A stretch of 25,407 nucleotides of DNA from an uncultured Methylobacter sp. (GTDB lineage Bacteria > Pseudomonadota > Gammaproteobacteria > Methylococcales > Methylomonadaceae). The position numbers and the translations under genes are program-made. The notes below the pieces were generated by a model. It did not search any database, had not been told where the DNA came from, and saw only the letters and a list, made by a program, of their open reading frames with translations. The stretch's first letter is position 1; every line of letters begins with the position of its first letter. Shown here one piece after another: positions 7,392-22,739 of this stretch. The stretch lies in NCBI GenBank assembly GCA_903831545.1, contig CAIKYI010000405.1, forward strand, positions 1-25,407. The letters are read 5' to 3'.

Positions 7392-7443
7392 GCTCTGTTG
7401 ACGTCTGGTTTTCAATAGGCTTGCAGGATGCTGGAGCCATCGT

Positions 7444-7471
7444 TTGAACAACCGAAGATTCTTTTTATAAC
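7444..7471 (+). promoter_or_regulatory. Predicted sigma70 promoter of the efflux operon
   Basis: TTGAAC (7444-7449) and TATAAC (7466-7471) are spaced by 16 bases, matching 4/6 and 5/6 of the consensus. Transcription would start near 7478, giving a leader of about 24 bases before the ATG at 7502. The start would fall inside the palindrome at 7473-7486. Confidence 0.5.
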
Positions 7472-7472
7472 G

Positions 7473-7486
7473 CGGCAATATTGCCG
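7473..7486. promoter_or_regulatory. Perfect 14-bp palindrome at the predicted transcription start
   Basis: CGGCAAT-ATTGCCG is a perfect dyad lying immediately downstream of the predicted -10 box and over the expected start site of the efflux operon. This placement suits a repressor operator, for example a metal-responsive one. It could equally be a small 5'-leader hairpin. No regulator gene for it is visible next door. Confidence 0.45.
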
Positions 7487-7501
7487 TATCGAGCTTGACT
7501 T

Positions 7502-8776
7502 ATGTTTTTTTTGAACTTTTTGAAAAGGCTCATTCCCGTTGTTGTGCTTGGGCATGTGGTTTTTTTTGCGGCTATATCACTCAGCTTTGCTGAATCATCG
7601 CTTATTGTCGAGCATCATGATTCGATTGAAAGTGACGCTGGCTTAAGCCTGGCTAAAGTCATCGCCCTAACCCTGGAAAAATATCCTGATGTAAGCTGGC
7701 TTAATTCGCTGGAAGAAGAGGCTGTAGCCCTGGCTCAGCGAGGTAAAAGTTGGACAGCCGGAGCTTCGCAGGCAGGTTTACGCTTTCAGGAAGCGACCAG
7801 TGGCACCCTTCATTATATTGACGCTTATGTTCAGGTACCGCTCTGGAATATAGGGCAGCGTGATGCCGAACAATCCGTTGCCAGACAAGCTGAAAATAAT
7901 GCAATGTCACAAGCGGAAGCGGTCAAGTTACGGGTGGCAGGATTGATACGCGGAGCTTTATGGGATATGGCGCTGGCAGACATTACTTATGAGCAGGCAA
8001 AAGCGGAACTTACAGTGACTGAGCAGTTATTGGCCAAAGTTAAGCGACGTGTCGAATTGGGAGATTTGCCTCGTGCTGATTTATTGCTGGCGCAATCGGA
8101 GTCCTTGCAGAAACGCTCAGTGGTAACGCTAGCGGAAGCTGAATTAATGCATGCCCGTAAACGTTATGCAAGTATCACGCAGATAACAAAAATGCCCGGC
8201 GATTATCAGGAAAAGCTGGTAGATATTGTCAAGATCCAGCAAAGTCACCCTGCCTTGGTGGCCATTAACAGTCAGATTGAACGTAAACAGGCCGAGCTTA
8301 ACGCCATTAAACAGGTTGGTTCCGGACAGACTAATGTCGCGGTCGGGATCAACAGTGATCGCTTTACCAATGATACGCGAAGTAACATGACCGAGAGTTT
8401 TAACATTGGTGTTACCGTTCCCTTTGGCGGTAGCGGGTATCTGGCGCCGAATATTGCAGCGGTTAATGTTGATTTAAACAAACTACTTGCGGAGCGTGAA
8501 CAACTGAATCGTACTTTGGAACAAGCTCACCACGAGGCCGAACATAATCTGGAAGTTAATCGGGTAGAACTGGGCATTGCCAATGAGTTAAGGCAGGTTG
8601 CCGAACAACATTTAAAAATGACTCAATCAAGCTTTTCGGTGGGAGAAATTGATCTGATGGATTTGTTAAGAATTCAGTCCAGAACCCAACAAGCGGTTTT
8701 AAACGCCAGGCAACGGGCGGTCATGTTACAGCGTGATATTGCGTTTTATAATCAGGCCGTAGGAGTTACGCCATGA
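7502..8776 (+). CDS. TolC-family outer-membrane channel of heavy-metal-type RND efflux (CzcC-like)
   Basis: A 424-residue outer-membrane efflux protein forming the exit duct of the tripartite pump. It has a hydrophobic signal sequence (about 1-30, cleavage after SFA). The long alpha-helical coiled-coil repeats are typical of the OEP family, with segments such as AEQQLKMTQSSFSVGEIDLM-type helix starts near the C terminus (FSVGEIDLMDLLRIQSRTQQ). Length fits CzcC/CusC proteins; there is no lipobox cysteine after the signal, unlike CusC. Its stop overlaps the next start (ATGA, 8773-8776), so it is translationally coupled to the adaptor gene. The ribosome site before ATG 7502 is weak. The metal substrate cannot be read from this subunit. 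Confidence 0.85.
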   Translation: MFFLNFLKRLIPVVVLGHVVFFAAISLSFAESSLIVEHHDSIESDAGLSLAKVIALTLEKYPDVSWLNSLEEEAVALAQRGKSWTAGASQAGLRFQEATSGTLHYIDAYVQVPLWNIGQRDAEQSVARQAENNAMSQAEAVKLRVAGLIRGALWDMALADITYEQAKAELTVTEQLLAKVKRRVELGDLPRADLLLAQSESLQKRSVVTLAEAELMHARKRYASITQITKMPGDYQEKLVDIVKIQQSHPALVAINSQIERKQAELNAIKQVGSGQTNVAVGINSDRFTNDTRSNMTESFNIGVTVPFGGSGYLAPNIAAVNVDLNKLLAEREQLNRTLEQAHHEAEHNLEVNRVELGIANELRQVAEQHLKMTQSSFSVGEIDLMDLLRIQSRTQQAVLNARQRAVMLQRDIAFYNQAVGVTP

Positions 8777-9876
8777 AAAGTTATCAATTTGTACTGTTAT
8801 TAAATTTGGCTTTGTCTGTTTGCTCGACAGCCATAGCCGAAAACACCATTCAAATATCCCCGGAGAATTCGACTAACCTTGGTGTGAAACTGGGAAAAAT
8901 GGAAGCCGTTAGCCAATTTCCGGTGTTGTCAGCCCCGGCCAATATAGTCATTCCGCCAACCCAGGAATATGTGGTCAGTGCAGCACAGGCCGGTTTTATT
9001 GAAAAAATGAATGTGGCGGTAGGTGACAAGGTTGTAAAAGGTCAGATTTTGGCTCTACTCAACAGCCCGGATCTGTTGGTGTTACAACAGGAATATCTTA
9101 AAGCCGATAATTCGCTGCAATTGGCTACGGCAATTTATCAGCGAGATAAAAAACTGTTACAGGAAGTTGTTATTTCTGATCGACTCTGGCAGGAAACCAG
9201 TAGCCAATATCATTCTGCTGTTTCTGAGACCGATAAACAAAAGCAATTGCTGGAAATTACCGGTATGACTACCAGTGATGTTGCCCAGTTTGGTAAAACT
9301 CACCGCTTAAGTCGACAATTAAATGTCCATGCGCCGATTACCGGAGTGGTCATAGAGCGCTTGGCCGTTGTGGGAACGCATATCGATATGATGGCTCCGC
9401 TTTATCGAGTCGCTAATCTTGATGAGCTTTGGCTGGAAATTGCCATTCCCCAGGAACGTATTTCCACTATTAAAGTTGGTGATCGGGTCGAGATTGAAAA
9501 CTCAAAAGTCACTGCAAAAATCAGCCTGTTAGACCAAAGCGTCAATCCTGAAAACCAGACTATTTTGGCGCGAGCAGTGGTCGATAAGCAAAGTCAGGGA
9601 TTATTACGGGCAGGTCAACGACTTAATAGCCGAATTATTCAGCTTAGCGACAAAGCTACCTTTAAAGTTCCAAATGCGGCGATTGCCCAGAACGAAGGTA
9701 AAGCCTTTCTTTTTATCCGCAGGCCAGATGGTTTCATGGTCACTCCGATTACAGTCATCGGTAAACAGGATGCTGATTCCATCATTAGTGGTGAATTTAT
9801 CGGAACAGAAGATATTGCCGTTAACGGTGCCGTTGCGCTAAAAGCTAACTGGCTGGGATTGGGGAGTGAAGAATAA
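8773..9876 (+). CDS. Periplasmic adaptor (membrane fusion) subunit of RND efflux pump, CzcB-like
   Basis: 367 residues with a signal peptide (1-22, cleavage after TAIA). The split lipoyl-like domain is recognisable by AGFIEKMNVAVGDKVVKGQ (about 75-93) and by its return half VHAPITGVVIERLAVVGTHI. A helical hairpin lies between them, and a beta-barrel region begins about LWLEIAIPQERISTIKVGDR. The adaptor bridges the pump and the TolC channel across the periplasm. It lacks the His-rich N-terminal extension seen in some CzcB proteins. It overlaps the upstream channel gene by 4 bases and the downstream pump gene by 1 base (TAATG), so the three are one operon. Substrate is not deducible from this subunit. 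Confidence 0.88.
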   Translation: MKSYQFVLLLNLALSVCSTAIAENTIQISPENSTNLGVKLGKMEAVSQFPVLSAPANIVIPPTQEYVVSAAQAGFIEKMNVAVGDKVVKGQILALLNSPDLLVLQQEYLKADNSLQLATAIYQRDKKLLQEVVISDRLWQETSSQYHSAVSETDKQKQLLEITGMTTSDVAQFGKTHRLSRQLNVHAPITGVVIERLAVVGTHIDMMAPLYRVANLDELWLEIAIPQERISTIKVGDRVEIENSKVTAKISLLDQSVNPENQTILARAVVDKQSQGLLRAGQRLNSRIIQLSDKATFKVPNAAIAQNEGKAFLFIRRPDGFMVTPITVIGKQDADSIISGEFIGTEDIAVNGAVALKANWLGLGSEE

Positions 9877-12800
9877 TGTCTAATCTGATTCGTTTCGCAC
9901 TGAGTCAGCGCCTGTTGATGATGTTACTGGTCGGATTGTTATCAGGTGGCGGTTATTATGCGTTTAAAAATATTCCGATTGATGCTTTTCCTGAAGTGTC
10001 GCCAACGCAGGTAAAAATTATTGTTAAAGCGCCGGGCATGACGGCTGAAGAAGTTGAAGCCAGAATCACAGCTCCCATCGAAGTCGAACTGCTGGGGATT
10101 CCGTATCAAACCATGCTGCGTTCTCTTGCAAAATATGCCTTGACCGACATTACCATCGATTTTAAAGAAGGAACCGATATTTACTGGGCGCGGCAACAAA
10201 TCGCCGAACGCTTAAATACCATGTGGGGAAGTTTACCGGCAGGAGTTGAAGGCGGAATTGCGCCAATGACTACGCCTTTAGGCGAAATGTTTATGTTTAA
10301 TATAGAAGGCGGCGATTTAAGTATGATGGAGCGCCGCAGTTTATTGGACTGGGTGATAAGACCGGCTTTGCGAACCGTTTCGGGTGTGGCCGATGTCAAT
10401 TCTCTGGGGGGACTGGTCAGAAGTTTTGAAGTTGTACCTGATAACACCCGCATGTCGGCCCGGAGCATCAGCATGGTGCAATTGACTACCGCCTTGCAAA
10501 ATAATAATCGAAACGACGGTGCCGGTCGCATGACTGATGGCGAAGAAGCCTTGATCGTGCGCGCCGAGGGACGTATTAAAACGCTGGAAGATGTCGGCAT
10601 TATCGTGGTTGACAGTAAAAATGGTGTGCCTATCACCATTAGTGACGTTGCCACAATCAGGGTTGGCGCTTTGACTCGCTATGGCGCGGTCAGTAAAAAT
10701 GGCGAAGGTGAAGGCGTCACCGGTTTGGTGTTAAGTTTACGCGGTGCCAATGCCAGACAAACCATCAAGGGTATAGAAAAGAAGCTTGCCGAAATCAGTC
10801 CGGGTTTTCCTAAAGGCGTTGAAGCCAAGATTTTTTACAATCGCGGCATTTTGGTAGATAAAGCGGTAAATACGGTTTTACATGCCCTGCTCGAAGCCAT
10901 TGCCCTGGTCATTATTCTGCTGATTTTATTTTTGGGCAATTTACGCGCCGCGTTGGTCGTGGCTTTTGCCTTGCCCTTGGCTGCCATGTTTACTTTTATT
11001 TTGATGGACTACATGGGCATGTCTGCAAACCTGATGAGTTTGGGGGGACTTGCCATTGCCATCGGTATGCTGGTTGATGCAGCCGTGGTAGTGGTCGAAA
11101 ATTTGATTACCCATCTGGCCCATACCGAAAAAGCCAGCCGCTTGCCCAGGTTGCACGTAATTTACCGTGCAACCAGCGAAGTTGCAGCACCGGTGGTATC
11201 CGGTATTTTGATTATTATCATTGTGTTTTTACCGTTGCTGACTTTACAAGGACTGGAAGGCAAATTGTTTACGCCGGTGGCATTAACCATTGTTTTTGCG
11301 CTTAGTGGTTCCCTGATTTTATCTCTGACCGTTATTCCGGTGATAGCCTCCTATTTGTTAAAAGAAGTATCCCACGAAGAACCGTGGTTGCCCAGACAGC
11401 TGCAAATGCTTTATCAACCGTCTTTGGTCTGGTGTATTGCCAACAGCAAGAAAGTCTTTGTTGCTGCAGGTTTGCTGCTGGTGGTAACGCTTGTTGTTTT
11501 TACCCGGATTGGCAGTACTTTTATGCCGACCCTGGACGAAGGCGACATCATTGTGCAACTGGAAAAATTACCCTCGATTACTTTGGAGCAATCGGTTGAC
11601 CTGGATATTCAGGTGCAAAAAAATCTGCTTAAAAATGTTCCTGAAATCGTCCATATTATTGCCCGCGTCGGCTCGGATGAACTGGGACTTGATCCCATGA
11701 GTTTGAATGACACCGATACCTTTTTGGAGCTAAAGCCAAAAAATGAATGGCGTATGGACACCAAAGAACAATTACTGGATGAAATTCGCAAGGTGATGGC
11801 GCAAACGCCAGGTATAGCCTTTCAGTTTACCCAGCCGATTGAAATGCGTGTTTCAGAAATGCTGACCGGAACGCGTGGTGATGTGGCGGTTAAATTGTTC
11901 GGTACTGACCTGGCCGTGTTAAATGACAAGGCGCAGCAAATTTCTGAGGTGTTGAAAGGCATTACCGGTGCCAGCGATGTGTTCGCCAAACAAAATGCCG
12001 GGATGCAGTTTTTGCAGTTGACCATTGATAAATCGGCGGCTGGGCGTTTGGGGCTTGATAGCGATAGCATTGAAGCCTTATTAAGGGCGCAGATTGAAGG
12101 CTTGAAGCTGGGTATTGTTCAGGAAGGCATAAAACGAACACCGTTAATTTTACGAGGCAAAAGTAATACTGCCGATTTTGACAATCTGCAAATTACCTTG
12201 CCGAATGGCGGTCATGTGCCGGTAACCGCCGTTGCGAAAATAGAAAAAGTGGAGGGCGTCGTGTCAGTACGCAGAGAGCATGGCCAGCGCTTTGTGGTTA
12301 TTACCAGTAATGTGCTTAACCGGGATCTGGTCGGTTTTGTTGATGAAGCCCGAAAAGCGGTTGCCGAAAAAATTGAATTACCGGTTGGCTATACGGTTGA
12401 ATTTGGCGGGCAGTTTGAAAACCAGCAACGTGCGGCGGCGACCTTGTCTCTGGTAGTGCCCATTTCGTTAGGGTTGATTTTTTTGCTATTGTTTTCAACG
12501 TTCGGCTCAGTACGGCAAGCCGTATTAGTGTTATCCAACATTCCGCTGGCAATGATCGGGGGCGTATTTGACTTATGGGCGTCCGGCGAATATCTGTCGG
12601 TACCAGCCTCGGTCGGATTTATTGCGTTGTTGGGGATAGCTGTTCTGAATGGCGTAGTTATGGTCAGTTATTTTAATCAGCTGATTGCAACCGGTATGGA
12701 TATCGTTAAAGTTGTGTTAGTGGGGTCTTCCCGGCGTTTACGCCCGGTATTAATGACCGCCAACATTGCAGCCTTCGGTTTGATTCCCCTATTGTTTGCA

Positions 12801-12938
12801 ACTGGCCCGGGCTCTGAAATTCAGAGACCTCTGGCTATCGTAGTGATTGGGGGACTGGTATCGTCGACTTTTTTAACGTTATTCATCTTGCCGATTTTGT
12901 TTAAATTATATGGATTGTCGCCGGAGCTTAAACGATGA
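9876..12938 (+). CDS. Heavy-metal-type RND pump subunit, CzcA/CusA family
   Basis: A 1020-residue inner-membrane proton antiporter with the usual RND layout: N-terminal span, periplasmic porter loop (about 35-330), spans 2-6, a second porter loop (about 550-840) and a final set of spans. Opening residues IPIDAFPEVSPTQVKI are typical of the metal-efflux (HME) branch. The span-4 signature reads GLAIAIGMLVDAAVVVVEN (391-409), with D401 and E408 kept. The DFG of classic divalent-metal CzcA is replaced by A395-I396-G397, as in CusA-type HME4 proteins. However, the three CusA substrate methionines do not appear at matching positions in PIEMRVSEMLTGTRGD and nearby. Metal specificity is therefore open. 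Its stop overlaps the DUF3240 start (ATGA). Confidence 0.9.
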   Translation: MSNLIRFALSQRLLMMLLVGLLSGGGYYAFKNIPIDAFPEVSPTQVKIIVKAPGMTAEEVEARITAPIEVELLGIPYQTMLRSLAKYALTDITIDFKEGTDIYWARQQIAERLNTMWGSLPAGVEGGIAPMTTPLGEMFMFNIEGGDLSMMERRSLLDWVIRPALRTVSGVADVNSLGGLVRSFEVVPDNTRMSARSISMVQLTTALQNNNRNDGAGRMTDGEEALIVRAEGRIKTLEDVGIIVVDSKNGVPITISDVATIRVGALTRYGAVSKNGEGEGVTGLVLSLRGANARQTIKGIEKKLAEISPGFPKGVEAKIFYNRGILVDKAVNTVLHALLEAIALVIILLILFLGNLRAALVVAFALPLAAMFTFILMDYMGMSANLMSLGGLAIAIGMLVDAAVVVVENLITHLAHTEKASRLPRLHVIYRATSEVAAPVVSGILIIIIVFLPLLTLQGLEGKLFTPVALTIVFALSGSLILSLTVIPVIASYLLKEVSHEEPWLPRQLQMLYQPSLVWCIANSKKVFVAAGLLLVVTLVVFTRIGSTFMPTLDEGDIIVQLEKLPSITLEQSVDLDIQVQKNLLKNVPEIVHIIARVGSDELGLDPMSLNDTDTFLELKPKNEWRMDTKEQLLDEIRKVMAQTPGIAFQFTQPIEMRVSEMLTGTRGDVAVKLFGTDLAVLNDKAQQISEVLKGITGASDVFAKQNAGMQFLQLTIDKSAAGRLGLDSDSIEALLRAQIEGLKLGIVQEGIKRTPLILRGKSNTADFDNLQITLPNGGHVPVTAVAKIEKVEGVVSVRREHGQRFVVITSNVLNRDLVGFVDEARKAVAEKIELPVGYTVEFGGQFENQQRAAATLSLVVPISLGLIFLLLFSTFGSVRQAVLVLSNIPLAMIGGVFDLWASGEYLSVPASVGFIALLGIAVLNGVVMVSYFNQLIATGMDIVKVVLVGSSRRLRPVLMTANIAAFGLIPLLFATGPGSEIQRPLAIVVIGGLVSSTFLTLFILPILFKLYGLSPELKR

Positions 12939-13240
12939 AGAGTAATCAATATTTAGTCACAATCAATGCACCGGTTAGCATTGAAGAAGCCATTGTTGAT
13001 TGTCTGTTAATCCTGGAGTCGGAATTTGGTTTTAGCAGTTTTCAAGTCAATTCGCATGATCACAAAAACAAAAACTTATCGTTAGCAGAACAGGTGAGTG
13101 GCAGGAAGAAAAGTATCCGTTTTCAAATGTATGTGTCAGAGCAGGGATTGCCTTTGCTGTTAGCGCAACTGAGGTCGGATTTTTCCGGTTCAGGGATTAA
13201 ATACTGGGTGCTGCCGGTGATTGAAAACGGGGTTATTTGA
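12935..13240 (+). CDS. DUF3240 family protein, small PII-like partner of the RND pump
   Basis: A 101-residue soluble protein with no signal peptide. The pattern is beta-alpha-beta-like: YLVTINAPVSIEEAIVDCLL, then FGFSSFQVNSHDH, then IRFQMYVSEQGLPLLLAQLR, then GIKYWVLPVIENG. This matches what I know of DUF3240 proteins, which lie beside CzcA-type efflux genes and are thought to share the GlnB/CutA-like ferredoxin fold. Its HDHKNKN loop could bind metal, but this is speculative. The start overlaps the pump stop by 4 bases, so the two are translationally coupled, and it is the last gene of the efflux operon. A role as cytoplasmic sensor or modulator of the pump is inferred from context. Confidence 0.75.
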   Translation: MKSNQYLVTINAPVSIEEAIVDCLLILESEFGFSSFQVNSHDHKNKNLSLAEQVSGRKKSIRFQMYVSEQGLPLLLAQLRSDFSGSGIKYWVLPVIENGVI

Positions 13241-13298: not shown

Positions 13299-15617
13299 TT
13301 AAAACTCTTCCCAGTCATCGTTTGCTTTAGGTGCGGGCATACTGATTTTTGCTGTTCTGGCCAATGTGGGTTGTTTTGTGAGCATCGCGGTAGTTGCCGG
13401 AATATGTCGTTGCTTGGTATCTATCTTGAAAGAGCCTACTATAACCGCCAGGCCTTTTGCCTGCTCTTCAAGCGATTCCGCAGCCGCAGCCGCCTGCTCG
13501 ACCAGCGCGGCGTTTTGTTGGGTTACGTTATCCATTTGTGCTATGGCCTGATTAACCTGTTTTATGCCCGTGCCTTGTTCCTCGGAAGCCTTCGATATAT
13601 TGGCCATTATCACCGTCACTCCCTTAATCGAATTGACAATCTCGGTCATGGTTTTACCAGCATGATTAACTAGCTTGGAACCTTCCCCTACCTTATCGAC
13701 GGAATCACTAATCAGGTTTTTAATTTCTGCAGCTGCGGCTGCGGCACGTTGAGCCAGATTACGCACTTCTATTGCAACAACGGCAAATCCTTTACCTTGA
13801 TCGCCTGCTCTGGCGGCTTCAACGGCCGCATTAAGGGCAAGAATATTGGTCTGAAACGCAATGCCATCAATGACCGAAATGATGTCAACTATCTTGCGCG
13901 AAGATTCGTTAATCGCTTCCATAGTAACAACAACCTGATTCACCACCTCTCCGCCTTTACCTGCTATGCTGGCTGCGCTGATCGCCATAACATTGGCTTG
14001 TTTGGCGTTCTCTGCATTATTGTGTACAGTCACTGTCAATTCATGCATGCTGGCTGCTGTTTGTTCCAGGCTGGCGGCCTGTTCTTCAGTACGTTGCGAT
14101 AGATCGTTATTGCCCGAAGCAATTTCTTTAGCCCCGGTATTAATGTCGCCAGAGACATCACTAATTTGGCCGATGATTTCTTTTAGTTTTTCAACTGTGG
14201 TATTGGCGTTATCTTTAAGTTGTCCGAAGGTGCCGGAATATTCGTTGGTGATGGTTTCCGTTAAATCACCCTCTGCTATGGCGCTCAGTACCCGCACAAC
14301 CTCATTAAGCCCGTCATTACAGACTTGCATCAGTTGGTTAATACCATCTGCCGCCTGTTCGTAGAAGCCGTGTAGTTCACCCGGGTCGATATAATAGCTA
14401 AAGTCACCTTTAACAGCCGCTTTAATAGCCTCAGCCACTTTTATTTCTACAAGGACTTCAGCGGTACGATCGACCCATTCCGCTGCGGTACCCAAACGAG
14501 TGCCTTGTTCGTCGAATACCGGGTTAGCGGTGACTACTAAATGATGGCCATGGACAATAATATTAGACAGGGAAGCCCCAGTTGCCGTGTTAAGCATAGC
14601 TTCCTGATGAGCGGGATCTTTATGGAATTGGTCTATATTGGAGCCAACCAACTTGTCCACTGAAAAAGTTGGCAGCTCTAACCTGATATCGGCTTCAATC
14701 TTGGTCAATAAGTTAACAACTGCTTGATTTGCGTAAATAATGGTGCGTTCATTATCGGCAATCATCACCCCGGTACTGACATTATCCAGGGCAATCTTGA
14801 TGCGTGTCACTTCTTCAATTAACTTATTTGCTGTGGTAATACGCCCAAGAATTTGCTGCTGCATTTGTTTCATTGCATATAACAAACTGCTTTTATCGTC
14901 GGCAGCAATGTCAATGCTTCTGTCTAAGTTACCTTTGGCAATTTCCTGCGCGATACCTTTTGCGTAGAAAGGATCAATGCCCAACTGTCTGCCCAAATAA
15001 TTGGTTAAATAAAGTGCGATAAAGATACTCGCCAATACGACGCAGAGGGAAGTCAACCACATAAAATTGGCAATATCTTCAGCGGCTTGCGCAAGGGTAG
15101 TGGTGATGGACTTTTCATTGTCGACGGCGGTATCTCTAAACGCCGTCATTCTTCCCGCCAAAACTAACGAAGCCTGATCAAACTCTACCATCATGACGTT
15201 GCCGGCCTGGAGACCATCAGAAATATAAGCCTCCGCCATGCGTTTACCCAATAAATAAAACGAGTCAAAAGCGTGGTCAATAGCCGCCAACTCGGTTACT
15301 TGGGTCGCCGATAGCTGATATTCATGAATTTGTTTGATCATTTTCTTGAAATCATCGGCATAAGCTTGCGCCTCTTTAAAGCCTCTCGGATTGTGAGTCG
15401 CAGACACATCAGTTAAAAACTGCTGTACCTGAACGACATCAAACGCCATTTTTTCTGCGGCCCAGGCTTGAGGTGACACTAAATCGCGTAACTCCGCCAT
15501 CCCTTTGCGAGAGCTGGAAAATTGCTCTAAAGCCAATCCTGTCAAGATAACCATCAATAATATGATCGTACCAAACCCTATCATCAAACGCGTTTTAAAA
15601 CTTATGAAACTTTTCAT
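13299..15617 (-). CDS. Methyl-accepting chemotaxis protein with HAMP, PAS and CheR-tether tail
   Basis: A 772-residue receptor with a first membrane span (about 10-30), a mostly helical periplasmic sensor (about 31-183) and a second span (about 185-206). Then come HAMP (about 206-258), a PAS-like domain (about 270-385), a second HAMP-like linker (about 395-480) and the long signalling coiled coil (about 485-730). The signalling tip DGIAFQTNILALNAAVEAAR (584-603) is canonical, so it should dock CheW/CheA. The C terminus is DWEEF (768-772) after a flexible Pro/Ala/Lys linker, matching the pentapeptide that tethers CheR/CheB in some receptors. It follows the HAMP-protein gene by 58 bases on the same strand, so it is probably the last gene of the porin-cytochrome operon. 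The ligand is unknown; a redox-linked cue is suggested by context. Confidence 0.92.
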   Translation of the reverse strand: MKSFISFKTRLMIGFGTIILLMVILTGLALEQFSSSRKGMAELRDLVSPQAWAAEKMAFDVVQVQQFLTDVSATHNPRGFKEAQAYADDFKKMIKQIHEYQLSATQVTELAAIDHAFDSFYLLGKRMAEAYISDGLQAGNVMMVEFDQASLVLAGRMTAFRDTAVDNEKSITTTLAQAAEDIANFMWLTSLCVVLASIFIALYLTNYLGRQLGIDPFYAKGIAQEIAKGNLDRSIDIAADDKSSLLYAMKQMQQQILGRITTANKLIEEVTRIKIALDNVSTGVMIADNERTIIYANQAVVNLLTKIEADIRLELPTFSVDKLVGSNIDQFHKDPAHQEAMLNTATGASLSNIIVHGHHLVVTANPVFDEQGTRLGTAAEWVDRTAEVLVEIKVAEAIKAAVKGDFSYYIDPGELHGFYEQAADGINQLMQVCNDGLNEVVRVLSAIAEGDLTETITNEYSGTFGQLKDNANTTVEKLKEIIGQISDVSGDINTGAKEIASGNNDLSQRTEEQAASLEQTAASMHELTVTVHNNAENAKQANVMAISAASIAGKGGEVVNQVVVTMEAINESSRKIVDIISVIDGIAFQTNILALNAAVEAARAGDQGKGFAVVAIEVRNLAQRAAAAAAEIKNLISDSVDKVGEGSKLVNHAGKTMTEIVNSIKGVTVIMANISKASEEQGTGIKQVNQAIAQMDNVTQQNAALVEQAAAAAESLEEQAKGLAVIVGSFKIDTKQRHIPATTAMLTKQPTLARTAKISMPAPKANDDWEEF

Positions 15618-15675
15618 TAATCAACCGTTGTTGTACTTTGAAAATTGCGTTGGATTTGCAACAAACTCACCCGTA

Positions 15676-16236
15676 TTAAAGCTTCTTGACAAGCCGGTTC
15701 AGCTCATTTATCTGCTCAAGCTGCTGTGTTGTGATGTTTTGATCTTGCGTTAATTGTTCAAGTTGAGTATTGATCTGGGTAAGCAAGTCCAAGTGCTGAG
15801 TTTTTTTAGTGCGTAGCTTGTGGACCATATCGCTAAAAGCCAAACCCAGCTCCTGAAGTTGGTCTTTTTCCCGCAAAGACAAATGTGTGTCGAGATTACC
15901 CGAACCGACCTCCTCGCAGATTTTTTTAAATCGATACAAGGGACCTACGATTTTATGGGTGGCATACAAGACCATAAACATTGATATCGATCCGGCGATA
16001 ACAATGGACACCACGTTACCGATCAAGATGGATAGCCCTAGCCTATCCCAGGCATTGACAATATTGGCATGAGCGGATTGCGATTGTGCTTGTAAATCTC
16101 CGCCGGTTATCCAGAAAATCAATAATGCAGAACATAGTCCTGATAATAAAATCATCAGAAAAACTCCAATAATGTAGCGGGTCTGGATAGATTGATGGAT
16201 AAAAATCTTTCGACGTTTGAATTGTGTTCTGGACAT
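15676..16236 (-). CDS. Two-span membrane protein with HAMP domain and C-terminal coiled coil
   Basis: 186 residues: a basic N terminus, span 1 (about 21-43), a short periplasmic loop (about 44-65), span 2 (about 66-92), HAMP (about 92-145, with HKIVGPLYRFKKICEEVGSG) and a Gln/Leu-rich coiled coil (about 147-186). No kinase, cyclase or methyl-accepting output domain follows, so it cannot signal alone in the usual way. Similar short HAMP proteins with the 'THKIxGPLYRFKK' motif occur near multiheme cytochrome genes in deltaproteobacteria, to my recollection. Its start overlaps the cytochrome stop by one base, so the two are co-translated. It may relay the state of the cytochrome or porin to the chemoreceptor just downstream, for instance by helical-bundle contact; this is inference. 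Confidence 0.75.
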   Translation of the reverse strand: MSRTQFKRRKIFIHQSIQTRYIIGVFLMILLSGLCSALLIFWITGGDLQAQSQSAHANIVNAWDRLGLSILIGNVVSIVIAGSISMFMVLYATHKIVGPLYRFKKICEEVGSGNLDTHLSLREKDQLQELGLAFSDMVHKLRTKKTQHLDLLTQINTQLEQLTQDQNITTQQLEQINELNRLVKKL

Positions 16237-16742
16237 TACTTGGACCCCGGGTTTGAATTATGACAAATTAAGCAAAGTTCGCCATCAACATTATTGCGGC
16301 GTAGTAAAAAACTCTTGTGCAAACGTTCGGCATTAAGTATTCGATCCATAGTACTAAAGCTGGCTTGGGGCCGATCGCTGACAAGAGTGCCGTGCGTGTA
16401 ATGACAGGTTAAACAGGACAAGGTGTTCTTTTTGTTTAAGGGCATATCGGCCGGTATTTCAAAATCCAGCTTTAAGCCTACTTTATGCCCGTCATCTGCG
16501 TTATGACAATCCGTGCACATGGCTACGCCATCTTTGCTGAACTCGGCACTGTCGAATTTTTTGTTTTTGGTATTCAGTAAATCGGTCTGGTCATGATGAA
16601 TTTCGGCAGCATGACAACTGGCACATTCGACGGACTTGCCAGTCGCAGAAATAGTATGCGGATTTTCCTCCGCAGGCACTGCAAAAGCGCCAAGCAACAA
16701 CAGCCCGGCAGTGAATTTAAATAACATTTGAAGATTAGTCAT
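16236..16742 (-). CDS. Periplasmic tetraheme c-type cytochrome (doubled CXXCH family)
   Basis: 168 residues with a signal peptide (about 1-24, cleavage near VPA) and four CXXCH haem sites: C40-H44, C76-H80, C110-H114 and C157-H161. Histidines such as H49, H50, H86 and H117 could be distal ligands for bis-His haems. Spacing and the segment LHKSFLLRRN before the last haem are like the doubled-CXXCH cytochrome family found in extracellular or periplasmic electron-transfer chains. No catalytic domain is visible, so it is an electron carrier or redox sensor. It overlaps the porin stop and the HAMP-protein start by one base each. The tight packing argues that the three proteins work in one complex or pathway. 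Haem attachment would need Ccm proteins encoded elsewhere. Confidence 0.9.
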   Translation of the reverse strand: MTNLQMLFKFTAGLLLLGAFAVPAEENPHTISATGKSVECASCHAAEIHHDQTDLLNTKNKKFDSAEFSKDGVAMCTDCHNADDGHKVGLKLDFEIPADMPLNKKNTLSCLTCHYTHGTLVSDRPQASFSTMDRILNAERLHKSFLLRRNNVDGELCLICHNSNPGSK

Positions 16743-18184
16743 TAAAAAGCCACCACTATTTGCGCAATACCCAATTTTTTATCAAAATAACGCTCTTGGG
16801 TTGCGGTTCCAAGAGAGTCTGTGTATTCAAATTTTAGCTTAAAATACTCATTAAACTTGTAATTCAAGCCAAGAGATAATGCGGAAACATTATTGATAGC
16901 AACCAGGTTGCCATCAAAATCATCGGCCTGTCGGTTATGCGGCTGCCATCTGCCGTAACGGGCAAAAGCAATGACCGGATAATGGATAAAACTTTCCAGA
17001 TTGGCCAGCAACGTTGAGTGATAACCAAGCTCGTTGGGCTTGCCAAGCACGGTAGTGCCATCGGTGGATTCGAAATTAGCGTTGACCCATAAGAATTCGT
17101 TTTGTAACCTTAAAAAACCATAGCCCAAACTTAAATCCGCAGCATACACCGTGTGCCGGACATTGTTGTTTTTATCAAGATCGCTCAAGTGCGACACGCC
17201 AAACTCAATGCCTTCGGGAGCATTTTTATGGGTACGATAGATGTTTTGTCCAAGCGATACCCCCAGGCGTCCACCCAGAGATGTTCCGTCATTAGCATAC
17301 ATTGCGTCAGTCCAAAACGCGGAAAAGTTAAACATCTTCCAGGAACCATAGGAACGCACACCATCACCGTTATAGCCGCCAAATTGCATTCTTGAGGTGG
17401 TGATCGGCGCAGTGATCGTCACGCGATCCTTGTTGGCAAAGTTTTGATAATCGCTTGAGAAGGGCAAATCAAATCGGCCTGCCTGTATATGAAACCCCTG
17501 GTTATTAAAAATCCGGCCTCTGGGTGGAATGGAATTATCAAACTGGTGGTAATCAATTAACGCAACTGCAATGCCTGCGCCACCTGCACCAATTCCCCCG
17601 GGCCCGCTGCCCCCACAGGAAATCGCAGCCGGAGCTGAGAACTCGGAGCCAGATGAGTTACCGCACAAAACCAGCGCCGAGCTTGCAGCAAAATTGTCGT
17701 TATGCGCATACTCCAGGTCAAGTTCAATTGAACCCACGCTAAAAGTCTGGTTAGTCGAATTATCGGTTTTAGCATTAACATCAAAAAAGCCGCTAATATC
17801 CAGGCCTTTTTCTTTTGCCTTTTCTCTTAATTCTTCTACTTCTTCAGTCAAGTCACCGAGTTTGCTGATAATACCCGGCTCAGATTGGGCGTCGGGCGCT
17901 TTCACCGGTTTAGGCTGTGCATTTTGTGAAATTTTTACGTCAGTAGCTGCAACGGATTGCGGCGAGGGACTCGGCGCTGCCTTGGGGGCATGTTCCAATT
18001 GCTGGAGTCGAGCTTCCAGTTCAGCAATTTTCTGGTCTTTTTCCTTCAACAGACCCGCGACAATCTGTCGGATATGTTCATCAGAAACGCTGGTAGCATC
18101 TGCTGTGGCATGAGCTATAGGTATCTGTAAGGTTAACAAAAAAATGGAAATCTTTGCTAATAGAGGGATGCTTGGATAAGTCAT
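16742..18184 (-). CDS. Porin-like outer-membrane beta-barrel with N-terminal coiled coil
   Basis: 480 residues from ATG 18184; the frame also has a TTG two codons earlier. A signal peptide ends near AHA. A coiled coil follows (EKDQKIAELEARLQQLE, about residues 48-64), then a Pro/Ala-rich linker, a second helix (LTEEVEELREKAKEKG) and a barrel starting at LDISGFFDV. Alternating aromatic strands run to a terminal phenylalanine (QIVVAF), the classic barrel end. The helix-plus-barrel plan recalls trimeric OprO/P-like porins. A glycine-rich insert (about residues 190-205) with two nearby cysteines (CGNSSG and SCGGSG) probably forms a surface loop. Coupling to a tetraheme cytochrome gene is reminiscent of porin-cytochrome conduits, but this barrel is smaller than MtrB/PioB, so a plain porin is equally possible. 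Confidence 0.8.
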   Translation of the reverse strand: MTYPSIPLLAKISIFLLTLQIPIAHATADATSVSDEHIRQIVAGLLKEKDQKIAELEARLQQLEHAPKAAPSPSPQSVAATDVKISQNAQPKPVKAPDAQSEPGIISKLGDLTEEVEELREKAKEKGLDISGFFDVNAKTDNSTNQTFSVGSIELDLEYAHNDNFAASSALVLCGNSSGSEFSAPAAISCGGSGPGGIGAGGAGIAVALIDYHQFDNSIPPRGRIFNNQGFHIQAGRFDLPFSSDYQNFANKDRVTITAPITTSRMQFGGYNGDGVRSYGSWKMFNFSAFWTDAMYANDGTSLGGRLGVSLGQNIYRTHKNAPEGIEFGVSHLSDLDKNNNVRHTVYAADLSLGYGFLRLQNEFLWVNANFESTDGTTVLGKPNELGYHSTLLANLESFIHYPVIAFARYGRWQPHNRQADDFDGNLVAINNVSALSLGLNYKFNEYFKLKFEYTDSLGTATQERYFDKKLGIAQIVVAF

Positions 18185-18202
18185 AACCAATTTCTTATAA
18201 TT

Positions 18203-18345: not shown

Positions 18346-19953
18346 TTACACGATGTCGGCAAACTGTTCGGTAATCAGATAAAATTCGGCTTCGTGAGTC
18401 AAAAAAGCCTCGACAATGTCTGGGTCAAAATGGATGCCACTGCCTTGGTTTATTATGGCATTGGCTTTATCTCGTGGAAACGGTTCTTTGTAAACGCGTC
18501 TGCAAGTCAGGGCATCGTAAACATCCACCAACGCCAGAATTCTTGCAACCAGCGGAATAGACTCACCTTGCAGACCCTGTGGATAGCCGCTGCCATCCCA
18601 TTTTTCATGATGTCCATAAGCGACATCCATACCGCATTTGATAAAACTTTGTGAGGGATATTGATCATACACTGTACGTAGAGTGTCACCGCCAATTTTG
18701 GCATGTGTTTTCATGATTTCAAATTCTTCCGGGGTTAAGCGACCCGGCTTTTTCAGGATGGCATCAGGAATGCCCACTTTGCCGATGTCATGCAGCGGCG
18801 ACGAGCGTACCAGGTCATTGGTGAATTCCTGGGTAATGATATCCTGGAATTTTTCGGTTGCGGCCAGAAACGAACAGATTAAGGCGCAGAGCTTTTTAAG
18901 GCGGAGTAGATGCGCTCCTGTTTCAGGGTCACGATATTCGGATAACTTTGCCAGCGCAGAAATGATGGCATCCTGTGCATCGTCAAACGCTTCGTGATTC
19001 CAGTGACTCAGCAACGCAGTGGCGGTGACATCTGCCATGCCGGTTAACGCTTCCAGCGCATCGGGTTCAAGTATCACATTACTTCCAGCCAGATTAAGCA
19101 GACCCAATACGCCCTGTTGGCCGTTTAATGGAACAGACATGAACGGTTGTCCAAGAAACAGTGATTTGTCAAAGTCATGAATGGTTGTTTCGGGCAAACC
19201 ATTGTGCTGCCAGATTTGTTTGTCGGCTAAGGTTTTGGAGGTGACGCCGACCGGACAGTTTTTAGCATGAAACGGCGCCAGATCAAGGTCAGGAGGGAAA
19301 TGACAGGTAAAATGCTCATCCAATTGTGGACTGAGCCATAAAGTGATGTCGTGCAAATTGGTGAGTTCGCTGACAGCATTAATCAATGCAGGGATAATGG
19401 TGTGCGAATGGCTTAATTGCGTCATGTTTGCGACATAACGATATTGCAATTGCAAGGCGCGGGTTTTTTTGGTGACTAGTGATTCAAGCTGGGTGTTCAG
19501 TTGACTGAGTTGTTGATTCGCCTGTTGCAACTGAGTTTGCAGTATTTGTTCAGACATCCGCAGCCGGTATTGTTCCAGGCTGTCTTTAAGTGTTTCCAGC
19601 AACACTTCCTTGGGACAAGGTTTGTTGAGAAAACGTGAAATATGTGCGTTATGTAAGGCATTAATGGCCACGTCGAGTTCTGCCCGACCGGTAAGCATCA
19701 TCAGCACTGTATCAGGATAGCGTTGATAGACGGTATTCAGAAACGTAATACCATCTATTCCGGGCATATTATAATCGGAAACTACAATAGCAAACGGTCC
19801 TTCAGTGGACATTAGGGTTAAGGCCGCGGTGCCGCCTTCTGCGATGGTGATGTCGAACTCTTTTCGTAGCTGGCGTTTTATTCCCTCCAGCAATAGCACT
19901 TCATCATCGACAAAAAGGATTTTTTGGCTGATGTTGGAAGATGATAAGGTCAT
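18346..19953 (-). CDS. Response regulator with REC, GAF-like and HD-GYP domains (cyclic-di-GMP phosphodiesterase)
   Basis: 535 residues. The receiver (about 10-125) has the acidic pair D16/D17, phospho-acceptor D60 (VVSDYNMPGIDG) and K111. A coiled-coil linker (about 130-172) and a GAF-like region (about 175-315) follow, then HD-GYP (about 325-520). Catalytic signatures are complete: HDIGKVGIPD (388-397), HAKIGG, HHEKWDGSGYP (448-458) and DVYDALTCRRVYK. It should hydrolyse cyclic-di-GMP when phosphorylated, like RpfG. The start ATG at 19953 has a good ribosome site (GGAG, 6 bases upstream). It lies 90 bases downstream of the HDOD regulator and belongs with the kinase at 21285-22739, the likely phosphodonor. 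Confidence 0.92.
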   Translation of the reverse strand: MTLSSSNISQKILFVDDEVLLLEGIKRQLRKEFDITIAEGGTAALTLMSTEGPFAIVVSDYNMPGIDGITFLNTVYQRYPDTVLMMLTGRAELDVAINALHNAHISRFLNKPCPKEVLLETLKDSLEQYRLRMSEQILQTQLQQANQQLSQLNTQLESLVTKKTRALQLQYRYVANMTQLSHSHTIIPALINAVSELTNLHDITLWLSPQLDEHFTCHFPPDLDLAPFHAKNCPVGVTSKTLADKQIWQHNGLPETTIHDFDKSLFLGQPFMSVPLNGQQGVLGLLNLAGSNVILEPDALEALTGMADVTATALLSHWNHEAFDDAQDAIISALAKLSEYRDPETGAHLLRLKKLCALICSFLAATEKFQDIITQEFTNDLVRSSPLHDIGKVGIPDAILKKPGRLTPEEFEIMKTHAKIGGDTLRTVYDQYPSQSFIKCGMDVAYGHHEKWDGSGYPQGLQGESIPLVARILALVDVYDALTCRRVYKEPFPRDKANAIINQGSGIHFDPDIVEAFLTHEAEFYLITEQFADIV

Positions 19954-20043
19954 GCAGGCTCCAAAATTTTGGCAATGAGGTATAAATCAGGGTTAGTAAA
20001 GTTTATAAAACTCAGAAAAAGCTTGTCTGCTATTGTATGGATT

Positions 20044-21267
20044 TTATTTGGCATTGTGGTTAGCCAGTACTTTATCAGCCAATAATTGCCAGCTGGGTAA
20101 GCGTTCAAATTTATTGATGCGTTGCAGGTAGGCGGTATCCAGGGTCATGTCAAACAATCGGTCGCAGCCAGACATAACAGAAGGCTTTAACAGGCAAGCG
20201 GCAACATGTACAGCGGTCAGGCCATTCATGTCATTGTAATCGGTATCGTTGGGATTGTTTTGTAACAGAATGGCCTCGATAATACGCGGCGGAATTTTCC
20301 ATAGACTTAAAACATAGGCTGCGCCTTCTGAACGCGTGAAACCAAAAATAGCCATTTCCAACTCGGCAACCGGCGTATCGGTGTTTTGGACGTATTCCAT
20401 CAAAAGTTTTAGTTTATTGCCGCCGCGCGACAGGAAGATCAGCAGTCCCATGTTGTGTAACAGTCCGCCCAAATAGGCTTGATCGGGACGATCCTCAAGC
20501 TGGTGTTCCGCTAATGCAATAAGCCGCGCCAGGTCAGCAACACGACTTGCGTCTTGCCACAGATGTTCCATGTAGAACTCCAGCTCAGGATTTAAAACCG
20601 GAAAGGCATTTTTAACATGCACCGACAGCACCAGGTTATTCAGTTTTTTGAGACCGATCAGATTAACAGCGTCAGTCAGGTTTGAAATAACACGATTCAA
20701 GCCAAAATAAGGCGAGTTGACCAGTTGCAATAGTTTGGCTGACAAAACCATATCGCTGGCAAAAATTTTGGCAATATCATTGATGGTAGTGTTTTCGTCG
20801 GCAATAGCCGTATTTAGTTCATGGTAGATTTTCGGCAGACTGGGAAGATGGTTGGGATCGCCGACTCCAGCGATAATCTGCGGGTTGCGCAAGCAGTCCT
20901 GGATTTTAAAAATTTGCGAAATAGCCTCACGCAAAATTTCTGAACTACAGGGTTTGCTGAGATATTGATGGGCAACTTCCAGTCCGCTTTTAAGCGTTGC
21001 TTCATCGGCATAGCCGCTGAGGATAATACGTACCGTTCCAGGGTATTGCTCGCTGACTATTTTAAGCAGTTCGTCGCCGCGCATTTCCGGCATCATCATG
21101 TCGCTGACGATTAAGTCTATTGCTTGTTGAGCCATCAATTGCAGCGCTTGCGGACCGTTCCTGGCAAAAAACAACTGCCATTGATCACGAAAAGGGCGCA
21201 ACTGGCGCTGAATGCCGCTGATGACGTTTTCGTTATCGTCTACAAACAGGATGTTTTTTTTAATCAT
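20044..21267 (-). CDS. Response regulator with REC and HDOD domains
   Basis: 407 residues. The receiver (about 4-120) has D10/D11, phospho-acceptor D56 (LIVSDMMMPEMRGD) and K105. The HDOD domain (about 138-345) carries LPSLPKIYHEL, the NSPYFG signature (184-189) and GLLHNMGLL. Here the HD pair reads H271-N272, as expected for a domain that does not act as a phosphohydrolase. HDOD proteins are signalling adaptors in proteobacteria and often share operons with HD-GYP and GGDEF proteins. The gene begins 17 bases after the kinase stop, so it is co-transcribed with it. Its partner and output are not known; binding to another protein rather than DNA is expected, as no DNA-binding domain is present. 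Confidence 0.9.
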   Translation of the reverse strand: MIKKNILFVDDNENVISGIQRQLRPFRDQWQLFFARNGPQALQLMAQQAIDLIVSDMMMPEMRGDELLKIVSEQYPGTVRIILSGYADEATLKSGLEVAHQYLSKPCSSEILREAISQIFKIQDCLRNPQIIAGVGDPNHLPSLPKIYHELNTAIADENTTINDIAKIFASDMVLSAKLLQLVNSPYFGLNRVISNLTDAVNLIGLKKLNNLVLSVHVKNAFPVLNPELEFYMEHLWQDASRVADLARLIALAEHQLEDRPDQAYLGGLLHNMGLLIFLSRGGNKLKLLMEYVQNTDTPVAELEMAIFGFTRSEGAAYVLSLWKIPPRIIEAILLQNNPNDTDYNDMNGLTAVHVAACLLKPSVMSGCDRLFDMTLDTAYLQRINKFERLPSWQLLADKVLANHNAK

Positions 21268-21284
21268 GAGCCTTATTCCTGACT

Positions 21285-22739
21285 TTAATGTTTCGTAGGT
21301 AACTGGATGTGGAATGTGGTGCCGATTTCCGGGGTGGATTCAAAAAACAATTTACCCTGATGGTTTTCAACAATAATACTGTGCGACAGACTTAATCCTT
21401 GCCCCGTGCCTTTGCCAACAACTTTGGTGGTAAAGAACAGGTTGAAGACTTTTTCCTGTATCTCCGGTGGAATGCCGGCACCGTTATCCTCGATCAAAAT
21501 TTCAACGTAATCATCAAGTTTGCGAGTGGTGATTTTAATCAGGCCTATACCTGCATGCCCCTCTTCAATCGCATGAGCGGCATTGATGATTAGATTGAGA
21601 AAAACCTGATTAAGTTCATTGGGATAACATTCTATGGTGTCTATATCGGAGGCAAAATCGGTTTCAATGTCGGCAATGTATTTATAGCTGTTGCGACTCA
21701 GGGTTAGAGCGCTGTTAATTGCCTGATGCAGGTTGATTGCCTGTTTGTTTTGATTTTGTTCGACATGGGAAAATGATTTCATCGCTTTGACAATTTCTGC
21801 AACCCGCTCTACGCCTTCTAGTGCCTGATTTATAGCTTTTGGACTGTCTTCGAGAATAAAGTCGAGATCGTATTTGTTTATCAATCCGGCCAGCTGTGGC
21901 TTTAAGTTATCATCGGCCAAATCCAGCAAGTCTTGCTGAAAAGCGATGATGTCGGCAAAATTAACTTGCAGTGCCGAGAGATTATCGCCAATGTATTGAA
22001 TCGGTGTGTTAATTTCATGGGCAACCCCAGATGCCAGCTGGCCGATAGCTTCCAGTTTTTGGGCTTGAACAAGTTGGGCTTGCAGGATTTTGGTTTCGCT
22101 GATGTCGTCAATCAAACCGGAAAAAAACAGATCGCCGTCAATCTCCATCGGGTTAACACGCAGCAGGGCCGGAAAATTGGTACCATCTTTACGCAATGCT
22201 TCCACCTCGCGGCGCTGGCCAATGATGGAGGGTATTTTGGTGTCTATATAACGTTTGAGGTAGCCATCATGGTTAATGGCAAGAGCTGCAGGCATTAAAC
22301 AAGAGACGTTTTTGCCGATGATTTCGCTGGCGCTATAACCGAATATTTGTTCGGCGGATTTATTGAAGCTTTGTATGCAACCTTTTTGGTCGATAGTAAT
22401 AATTGCGCTGGCCGCAGTATCCAGTATCGAATTAAGTTGTGTGGAGCGGCGTTCCGAGTTGAGTCTGGCTTCATCGGTCGCCTGAGTTCGTTCAGTCACG
22501 ATTTGCTTAATCAAAGGTCTTAATGCTAGCCACCACAGCATCGGTGAGCTTAGGCAACTTAACAGCACAGTATCTAAAATTGAAACCTGCATGAGCGTAA
22601 GGACAATGCCAAGCTGTGTAATCTCATCAAGTACAAGCATGACGCCCATTTCTGAAATACCAATAACAGCAATGATTATGAGCAGTGAAGAAGCAAAGTT
22701 ACGCTTTAGCAAGCGCTCAGGCAACAATGACTTAATCAT
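21285..22739 (-). CDS. PAS-domain sensor histidine kinase
   Basis: 484 residues: two or three hydrophobic spans at the N terminus (about 17-37 and 42-75) with almost no periplasmic loop, PAS (about 98-216), dimerisation helix with the phospho-acceptor H241 in GVAHEINTPIQYI, and a HATPase domain (about 335-482). The N box NLIINAAHAIEE (N386), the G1 box IEDNGAGIP (D418) and the G2 box GKGTGQGLSLSHSI are intact. An ATP-dependent autokinase at the inner membrane is expected, sensing through PAS rather than through a periplasmic domain. No receiver is fused; the two response regulators directly downstream are the obvious targets. The ATG at 22739 has no Shine-Dalgarno; instead AACCTCCT, its complement, stands just before it. 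Confidence 0.92.
   Translation of the reverse strand: MIKSLLPERLLKRNFASSLLIIIAVIGISEMGVMLVLDEITQLGIVLTLMQVSILDTVLLSCLSSPMLWWLALRPLIKQIVTERTQATDEARLNSERRSTQLNSILDTAASAIITIDQKGCIQSFNKSAEQIFGYSASEIIGKNVSCLMPAALAINHDGYLKRYIDTKIPSIIGQRREVEALRKDGTNFPALLRVNPMEIDGDLFFSGLIDDISETKILQAQLVQAQKLEAIGQLASGVAHEINTPIQYIGDNLSALQVNFADIIAFQQDLLDLADDNLKPQLAGLINKYDLDFILEDSPKAINQALEGVERVAEIVKAMKSFSHVEQNQNKQAINLHQAINSALTLSRNSYKYIADIETDFASDIDTIECYPNELNQVFLNLIINAAHAIEEGHAGIGLIKITTRKLDDYVEILIEDNGAGIPPEIQEKVFNLFFTTKVVGKGTGQGLSLSHSIIVENHQGKLFFESTPEIGTTFHIQLPTKH

Follow-up and report, generated by a model that had tools for sequence, protein, structure and literature searches.

The best known sensors for redox taxis carry their cofactor within the chemoreceptor itself, and few systems are known in which bacterial taxis responds to the redox state of the periplasm or the cell's exterior. 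In Desulfovibrio, the chemoreceptor DcrA is reportedly one in which a c-type haem is tied to a methyl-accepting receptor, with a proposed oxygen or redox input. Here we describe a locus from an uncultured Methylobacter sp. in which haems and receptor are encoded separately. It lies in a stretch of 25,407 nucleotides (contig CAIKYI010000405.1 of assembly GCA_903831545.1; hereafter the window, meaning the whole stretch) and comprises genes for a porin, a tetrahaem c-type cytochrome, a small two-span protein with a HAMP domain and a chemoreceptor. In contrast to DcrA, the haems would be carried by a cytochrome distinct from the receptor, with the HAMP protein as a further, separate component in between, whilst the receptor has no CxxCH motif (its only cysteines are at residues 192 and 433) and is thus not a c-haem receptor of the DcrA kind. 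The first three genes, which we call the triad, very probably form a conserved unit functionally tied to chemoreception.

Several described systems resemble parts of this locus. The Aer2-type haem-PAS aerotaxis receptors of Pseudomonas, Vibrio and Shewanella share with the window's receptor a PAS domain with the haem-ligand histidine and a tryptophan, a HAMP domain, a methyl-accepting chemotaxis protein (MCP) signalling domain and a C-terminal tether motif, but the window's receptor spans the membrane twice, carries a periplasmic domain and is encoded beside the triad. A link between c-type cytochromes and a chemoreceptor has been reported in Shewanella, where congregation and energy taxis dependent on extracellular electron transfer involve the mtrBC/omcA genes and the Cache-domain receptor gene SO_2240, which has a distant locus tag (PMC5789149); the abstract and Discussion of that study mention no HAMP-only protein, in contrast to the locus described here. 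In the MtrAB, MtoAB and PioAB electron conduits, including a decahaem cluster reported from Methylobacter (PMC13322032), a barrel gene likewise adjoins a gene for a multihaem c-type cytochrome, in the latter case also in a methanotroph. The window differs from these in its modelled 16-strand, diffusion-type porin, in having four haems and in the presence of the HAMP protein and receptor.

Conservation of the triad and its link to chemoreceptors

The minus strand holds an open frame for each of the four genes: the porin (482 residues; 16742..18190), the cytochrome (168 residues; 16236..16742), the HAMP protein (186 residues; 15676..16236) and the chemoreceptor (772 residues; 13299..15617). Taken in gene order, the intergenic distances are -1, -1 and 58 bases, so that the four co-oriented genes, single-base overlaps and final gap of the original prediction hold on the open frames, to which the strand is now added. 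The prediction had proposed that conservation of the gene order be checked across genomes. We fetched 68 loci, dropped two (L119 and L159) that gave no cytochrome match and reduced the remainder to 35 distinct cytochromes on the basis of their last 60 residues; the window is not among the 35. Porin, cytochrome and HAMP genes are found in that order and orientation in 31 of these loci, mostly from methanotrophs. Gaps within the triad run from -64 to 18 bases in 30 of the 31, the other (213 bases) lying in a frame that is split in two. The gene order is therefore not unique to this strain, and an oddity of a single genome is ruled out. The exceptions are L070 (a contig edge, with no porin seen), L157 (no HAMP gene), L158 (cytochrome alone) and L084. 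The last is a second, degenerate copy in genome G094, with an intact HAMP gene, a cytochrome reduced to one CxxCH and no porin. Named homologues come from Methylobacter, Methylomonas and other Methylococcales. For Methylomonas isolates, nine named records were fetched; all have the triad, and in eight of them, including Methylomonas sp. LW13, a strain for which a gene deletion is mentioned in the literature (PMC12607906), a receptor of 538–543 residues lies directly downstream. A search of the open-licence literature found no description of the triad or of a HAMP–multihaem cytochrome pair, which is not proof of absence.

Chemoreceptor genes accompany the triad in most of these loci. An MCP-homologous gene lies within 1.1 kb of 24 of the 31 full triads, and in 16 of them it is directly downstream, co-oriented and no more than 200 bases away. 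In three more (L069, L090 and L117) a receptor is seen only in part, being cut by a contig end or an unavailable stretch; the visible part of L117 includes HAMP domains and a periplasmic domain, whereas an MCP signalling domain was not seen. In genome G007 the receptor contig was suspected to continue from the triad contig, but their ends show no visible overlap, and the genome is not counted as a downstream case. The position of the receptor varies, from downstream through upstream and co-oriented (L071, L081, L085, L114, L125 and L151) to divergent (L116), and this variety of arrangements argues for an association that has arisen repeatedly or been maintained. For comparison with chance, we hand-chose 21 triad genomes from the 36 that were cytochrome-positive; among the 15 not chosen are G032 and G585, neither of which showed a receptor within 1.1 kb. 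In 19 of the 21, the triad has a receptor or receptor-like gene at that distance or less (three of them, in G001, G016 and G571, seen only in part), as against 0.37 expected from receptor density. Together with the 24 linked triads, this led us to reject the receptor as a random neighbour, although a formal probability of linkage would be meaningless because of common descent.

The receptors and their shared periplasmic domain

The window's receptor matches MCPsignal (PF00015, 174.5 bits), PAS_8 and HAMP_2, has hydrophobic spans at about residues 4–36 and 181–210 and, having an MCP signalling domain together with membrane spans, is a methyl-accepting chemotaxis protein. From its N-terminus it is made up of a first membrane span, the periplasmic domain, a second span, PAS, HAMP and the MCP signalling domain. 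The PAS region (residues 262–400; 14418..14834, minus strand) is a putative haem-PAS of the Aer2 type, matching Pseudomonas Aer2 with E values of 3.9e-32 (3vol) and 1.2e-30 (4hi4). The Aer2 haem-ligand histidine is aligned in the receptor (FHKDPAHQ against FHKNPAHQ); both His332 and Trp381 are kept, opposite Aer2 residues that we number 234 and 283 by counting along the 4hi4 alignment, and the tryptophan at 283 is one we take to be oxygen-stabilising. H234 is reported as the haem ligand of Aer2 (PMC13401364). At its C-terminus the receptor carries DWEEF (13302..13316, minus strand), which fits the CheR-tether pattern -x-[HFYW]-x2-[HFYW] given in a study that also treats the 36H heptad class as a trait of Aer2-like receptors (PMC7184735). 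Against the NCBIfam Aer2 equivalog NF041847 the receptor scores 509.1 of 1200 bits and does not reach the cut-off. The match to the Aer2 haem-PAS, as judged from sequence, strengthens the redox theme of the original prediction. Hemerythrin (L114) and CZB domains (L133 and L151) occur in other triad-linked receptors, so that an oxygen or redox theme recurs.

The downstream receptors differ in output. Those of the window's type have a PAS domain and a W-x-x-F end, those of the Methylomonas type have 538–543 residues and an ISQFK/RL end, and the signalling parts of the window's receptor and a 538-residue Methylomonas receptor are only 30.5% identical over 311 columns. Both types, and others besides, nevertheless have one periplasmic domain in common, marked by a QxQQ(F/W)LTD motif, which in the window is VQVQQFLTDVSATH (receptor residues 62–75; 15393..15434, minus strand). 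An alignment of this domain from 19 receptors, 18 chosen by the motif and L114 added by hand, has 13 invariant positions, of which about four follow from the motif-based selection. Compared with structures in the PDB, the domain gave no credible match (best E 0.99).

The shared domain is concentrated at the triad. Among the 21 genomes above, 14 of the 35 receptors with the domain are at the triad as against six of 302 other receptors; the 35 is a hand count with fragments merged, and the 302 was obtained by subtraction from about 337 MCP matches, some cut receptors lying outside the 337. In the window's family (151 genomes), the domain is found in 22 of the 25 cytochrome-positive genomes and in 22 of the 126 others; sorted by the stand-alone HAMP protein instead, the counts are 31 of 37 genomes that have it and 13 of 114 that lack it. 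When counted by genus, the domain occurs in ten of the 12 HAMP-positive genera (a hand count) and in none of the 17 HAMP-negative ones.

The porin, the cytochrome and the stand-alone HAMP protein

The porin reads from one of two candidate starts, a TTG at 18190 or an ATG at 18184, and has a hydrophobic N-terminus, a coiled coil at about residues 37–66 and a modelled 16-strand barrel at residues 131–481. The outer-membrane barrel of the original prediction is borne out by this structure model, from which the assignment comes. The best structural matches are to OprO, OprP and OmpC, 16-strand porins with which the model shares its fold but to which the window's protein shows only 9–14% identity in the matched structures; MtrB is not among the fold-search matches listed, which by itself excludes nothing. 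Sequence searches gave no Pfam family at E ≤ 0.01, no NCBIfam match and nothing credible against solved structures. The protein gave no match to Porin_O_P (PF07396), although one homologue (P0313) carries that domain. The porin is found in 28 of the 201 genomes of the order, four of the 28 being outside the family and one of those four (G531) having no adjoining cytochrome.

The cytochrome begins with a signal-like hydrophobic stretch and contains four CxxCH motifs, at residues 40–44 (16611..16625), 76–80 (16503..16517), 110–114 (16401..16415) and 157–161 (16260..16274), all on the minus strand and all invariant in our alignment (A1); beyond these, only three histidines (29, 86 and 117) are invariant. 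It matches Paired_CXXCH_1 and Cytochrome_C7, barely exceeding both cut-offs, and gives a weak match to an MtrC/MtrF domain (28 bits, cut-off 30). The profile for MtrA/DmsE-type decahaem cytochromes, TIGR03508, gives 23.3 bits against a cut-off of 192.2. Amongst solved structures the cytochrome profile found only OmcS, at an E value of 0.22 that we did not accept as a match. The gene is present in 25 of the 151 genomes of the family, and when 369 genomes were drawn from the class it was found in the window's own genome and two others (G158 and G287).

In the HAMP protein, a short loop joins two hydrophobic spans, and a HAMP domain at residues 93–142 and a C-terminal tail follow. The HAMP match (24.6 bits) falls just below the Pfam cut-off of 25 bits and no other domain was found, in agreement with the output-less, two-span protein originally described. 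Its sequence matches 44 of the 151 family genomes, 37 of which we count as having the stand-alone protein (36 scoring above 90 bits and a contig-edge fragment in G130); the other seven are weak matches inside long frames. All 25 cytochrome-positive genomes of the family have it, and its gene follows the cytochrome in 33 of the 35 distinct loci. The original prediction had called its position between cytochrome and receptor telling. The fixed place after the cytochrome stands, but a place before the receptor does not, since the receptor may be downstream, upstream or divergent. We also considered, without a formal test, whether the HAMP protein might be a decayed receptor. The protein has a conserved N-terminus, loop and partner gene of its own, and homologues of it occur in loci whose listed genes include no match to the window's receptor; we did not adopt this idea.

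Related pairs also occur outside the methanotrophs. In a metagenome-assembled genome named 'Deltaproteobacteria bacterium' (G613), a stand-alone HAMP gene directly follows that for a five-haem cytochrome, and 85 of 242 genomes of its class have a HAMP match at E ≤ 1e-8. We fetched 60 of these places and inspected the first 20 gene by gene. The HAMP gene was called in 19, of which 13 have it directly after a five-haem cytochrome, two have an intervening GGDEF-like gene, one has it after a three-haem gene and three have no adjoining multihaem cytochrome. In the C-terminal haem region, the window's cytochrome aligns with the pentahaem cytochromes over 71 columns (hhalign probability 97.1, E 7e-11), a score that CxxCH-rich profiles can inflate. 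Taking both groups together, 70 of 106 stand-alone HAMP open reading frames have a gene with at least two CxxCH motifs within 1.5 kb. The window's protein, with two spans, no output domain and an adjoining multihaem cytochrome, belongs with these pairs. Homologous HAMP proteins beside pentahaem cytochromes in this second class point, as far as sequence can indicate, to a cytochrome–HAMP pair older than the methanotroph triad.

The surroundings of these HAMP genes vary. In L236, L237, L240 and L244–L246 there are runs of five- and eight-haem cytochromes and genes of like size, with the HAMP gene last or inside (the first cytochrome of L245 has two haems); Pfam searches of genes of L236 and two of L244 found NHL/beta-propeller proteins and further multihaem cytochromes. 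The gene between the pentahaem cytochrome and HAMP genes encodes a diguanylate cyclase with its own HAMP domain in L234 (5328–7277), and in L235 (3686–5692) it gives a like match to the window's EAL/GGDEF protein. A different arrangement is seen in L273, L274, L278 and L288, where two HAMP genes alternate with genes for seven-haem and four-haem cytochromes and the loop histidine described below is missing. Within the gammaproteobacteria, genus g14 (L089, L091–L096, L098 and L099) has divergent stand-alone HAMP proteins (about 31–37% identity) with no cytochrome or porin nearby; the neighbours in L089 are LpxK, a cytidylyltransferase and a glycosyltransferase, and the other g14 loci have genes of like size.

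The short loop of the window's HAMP protein, which would face the periplasm, contains His56 (16069..16071, minus strand). This position is histidine in 30 of 41 gammaproteobacterial rows and tyrosine in the 11 rows from genus g14, which lack the cytochrome. Across the 106 frames, 58 have both a loop histidine and a multihaem neighbour, six the histidine only, 12 the neighbour only and 30 neither (Fisher 3e-11, near copies included). The same four counts are 28, 2, 0 and 11 in the gammaproteobacteria and 30, 4, 12 and 19 in the class of G613, where 28 rows with the loop histidine have a five-haem neighbour. Eight of the 12 neighbour-only rows come from the alternating arrangement and one lies on a 92-residue frame (L248). 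An alignment of 31 pentahaem cytochromes has, in addition to the five CxxCH motifs, five other invariant histidines, of which His205 is not counted as a ligand because it lies within a stretch matching a phosphatase N-terminal (fibronectin-like) domain.

Neighbouring genes and possible mechanisms

The source assembly (3.6 Mb in 805 contigs, 72.7% complete) has 15 MCP-domain matches and one match to a CheA-type kinase. Ahead of the porin and co-oriented with it (18346–22739) are genes for a PAS histidine kinase (21285–22739), a response regulator–HDOD protein (20044–21267) and a response regulator with an HD_5 (HD-GYP-type) domain (18346..19953), all on the minus strand; the last is 155 bases upstream of the porin and outside the conserved triad. 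In a relative, G015 (L294), the triad is absent from a contiguous run made up of the orthologue of the window's receptor and, after it, those of the kinase (73%) and the HDOD protein (80%). On the other side of the locus, convergent with the receptor on the plus strand (7502–13240), are three genes that we read as CusCBA-like heavy-metal efflux and then a DUF3240 gene, the member of this group on which Pfam was run. Scans for promoters and terminators gave 15 hits against 9.9 in shuffles and 9 against 5.6, slightly above expectation and deciding nothing.

A link to taxis is supported by these comparisons, since the triad is conserved, receptors adjoin it, receptors of different output share one domain and that domain co-occurs with the HAMP protein by genus; in this respect the original prediction, which had tied the locus to taxis, was well grounded. 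Our best reading, held tentatively and with a little less than even confidence, is that the cytochrome and HAMP protein are a split periplasmic redox sensor that feeds or accompanies a receptor with an Aer2-type haem-PAS of its own. The general 16-strand porin would let a small redox-active solute into the periplasm, and the tetrahaem cytochrome would trade electrons with that solute or with periplasmic carriers. The HAMP protein, in the inner membrane and with its short periplasmic loop, would be the membrane partner of the cytochrome, and its HAMP domain would relay the state of the cytochrome inward. The receptor, through its periplasmic domain and cytoplasmic PAS, would then inform CheA of redox or oxygen conditions in both periplasm and cytoplasm. 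We infer the cellular locations, the contacts of the HAMP protein with cytochrome and receptor, the direction of signalling and redox state as the signal; that the receptor reads the cytochrome and HAMP protein as its redox input is again something we would put just short of an even chance.

A number of observations weigh against this split-sensor reading. Within 1.1 kb, no receptor accompanies four of the 31 triads: in L067 the nearest is 3.5 kb upstream, past a gene similar to that for the window's EAL/GGDEF protein, in L115 it is 3.1 kb away past a GGDEF-EAL gene, L118 has a transposase-like gene after the triad and in L073 no receptor was seen. Shared ancestry and near-identical copies inflate the counts of linkage. 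The cytochrome-positive genomes G032, G036 and G094 gave no match for the shared domain, 13 genomes carry the domain but lack the HAMP protein, and in G015 and G144 the shared-domain receptors lie away from the triad (G015 has other receptor types there, and in G144 the nearest receptor is 3.5 kb off). In the 19 loci from the class of G613, none of the listed neighbours of the HAMP gene gave a match to the window's receptor, which shows that the HAMP–cytochrome pair can occur without one. The AlphaFold model of the cytochrome has a predicted local distance difference test score of 45.2 and was left out of the fold searches. Lastly, an independent-pairs test of the association between loop histidine and multihaem neighbour had about two informative pairs of six, which were concordant, and was not significant (median p 0.5).

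The same loci can be read as an electron-transfer or detoxification unit with a co-regulated receptor. In that case the porin would admit a substrate that the cytochrome reduces or oxidises, the HAMP protein would only anchor or scaffold, and the receptor would be co-located for taxis to the same niche (low oxygen or a given acceptor) with no direct signal from the cytochrome. A fixed triad beside a receptor of variable type and position is what this would look like, as are the pairs without a matching receptor in the class of G613 and the G015 receptor orthologue that sits beside histidine kinase and HDOD genes rather than the triad; the window's receptor, having its own Aer2-type PAS, could moreover sense oxygen unaided. 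Co-regulation alone would not, however, require receptors of different output to keep the same periplasmic domain at the triad, nor that domain to track the HAMP protein across genera, and HAMP domains transmit signals and do not usually serve as anchors. We consider this explanation rather unlikely, if a serious possibility. That the HAMP protein instead tunes the membrane layer of chemoreceptors by mixing into it, cytochrome and porin being a separate passenger function, is improbable. Nine of the 12 HAMP-positive, cytochrome-negative genomes do have the receptor domain (in G130, which is among the nine, the contig stops within the HAMP gene, and the apparent lack of a cytochrome may be no more than a gap in the assembly), but every cytochrome-positive genome of the family has the HAMP protein, the homologue in the class of G613 accompanies multihaem cytochromes with no receptor match among the listed genes, and the orphan HAMP proteins of genus g14 differ in the loop.

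The original prediction had suggested an outer-membrane electron-transfer path, in which a porin–cytochrome conduit exports electrons and the HAMP protein and receptor read the flow. The overlapping barrel and cytochrome genes, the weak MtrC/MtrF match and the Shewanella precedent, where taxis needs extracellular electron transfer genes and a receptor (PMC5789149), are consistent with such a device. The modelled porin, with its OprO/OprP/OmpC-type matches, and the number of haems (four, not ten, with a TIGR03508 score far below its cut-off) led us to reject it as the leading reading, and we regard it as highly improbable. No MtrA/DmsE-type decahaem match was found at E ≤ 1e-15 in ten of 11 triad genomes searched. 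In the window's genome, the MtrA-type decahaem gene is on another contig, and the published Methylobacter conduit is reported from a different, decahaem locus (PMC13322032). That other contig (C337 of G000, in L295) has monohaem and then decahaem MtrA/DmsE-type genes at its end (7186–8762), in an order resembling the Methylobacter cluster as reported (PMC13322032).

Returning to the split sensor, a role for His56 as a haem ligand is not established. The association with multihaem neighbours is not significant on independent pairs, ancestry explains much of it, and the invariant Met75 or Lys143 are equally possible ligands; that His56 ligates a haem is a bold guess, which we think unlikely. Similarly speculative, and in our view doubtful, is a wider idea in which the HAMP protein and a multihaem cytochrome make up an ancient, little-described split redox sensor, present in methanotrophs and in the class of the 'Deltaproteobacteria bacterium' genome. 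His56 would complete or touch the single haem to which the cytochrome itself offers no invariant distal histidine, so moving the HAMP domain according to redox state, and the methanotrophs would have wired this sensor to receptors with a matching periplasmic domain.

A conserved triad beside a chemotaxis receptor suggests that many methane-eating bacteria may steer by redox conditions in a little-described way. If the split-sensor reading is true, a unit with haems, membrane transmitter and chemoreceptor as separate proteins would make the question of redox taxis testable in cultured methanotrophs. It would also bear on how methanotrophs position themselves at oxygen–methane interfaces, a setting for which a 2025 study reports that chemotaxis genes rise under hypoxia in Methylomonas denitrificans FJG1 (PMC12607906).

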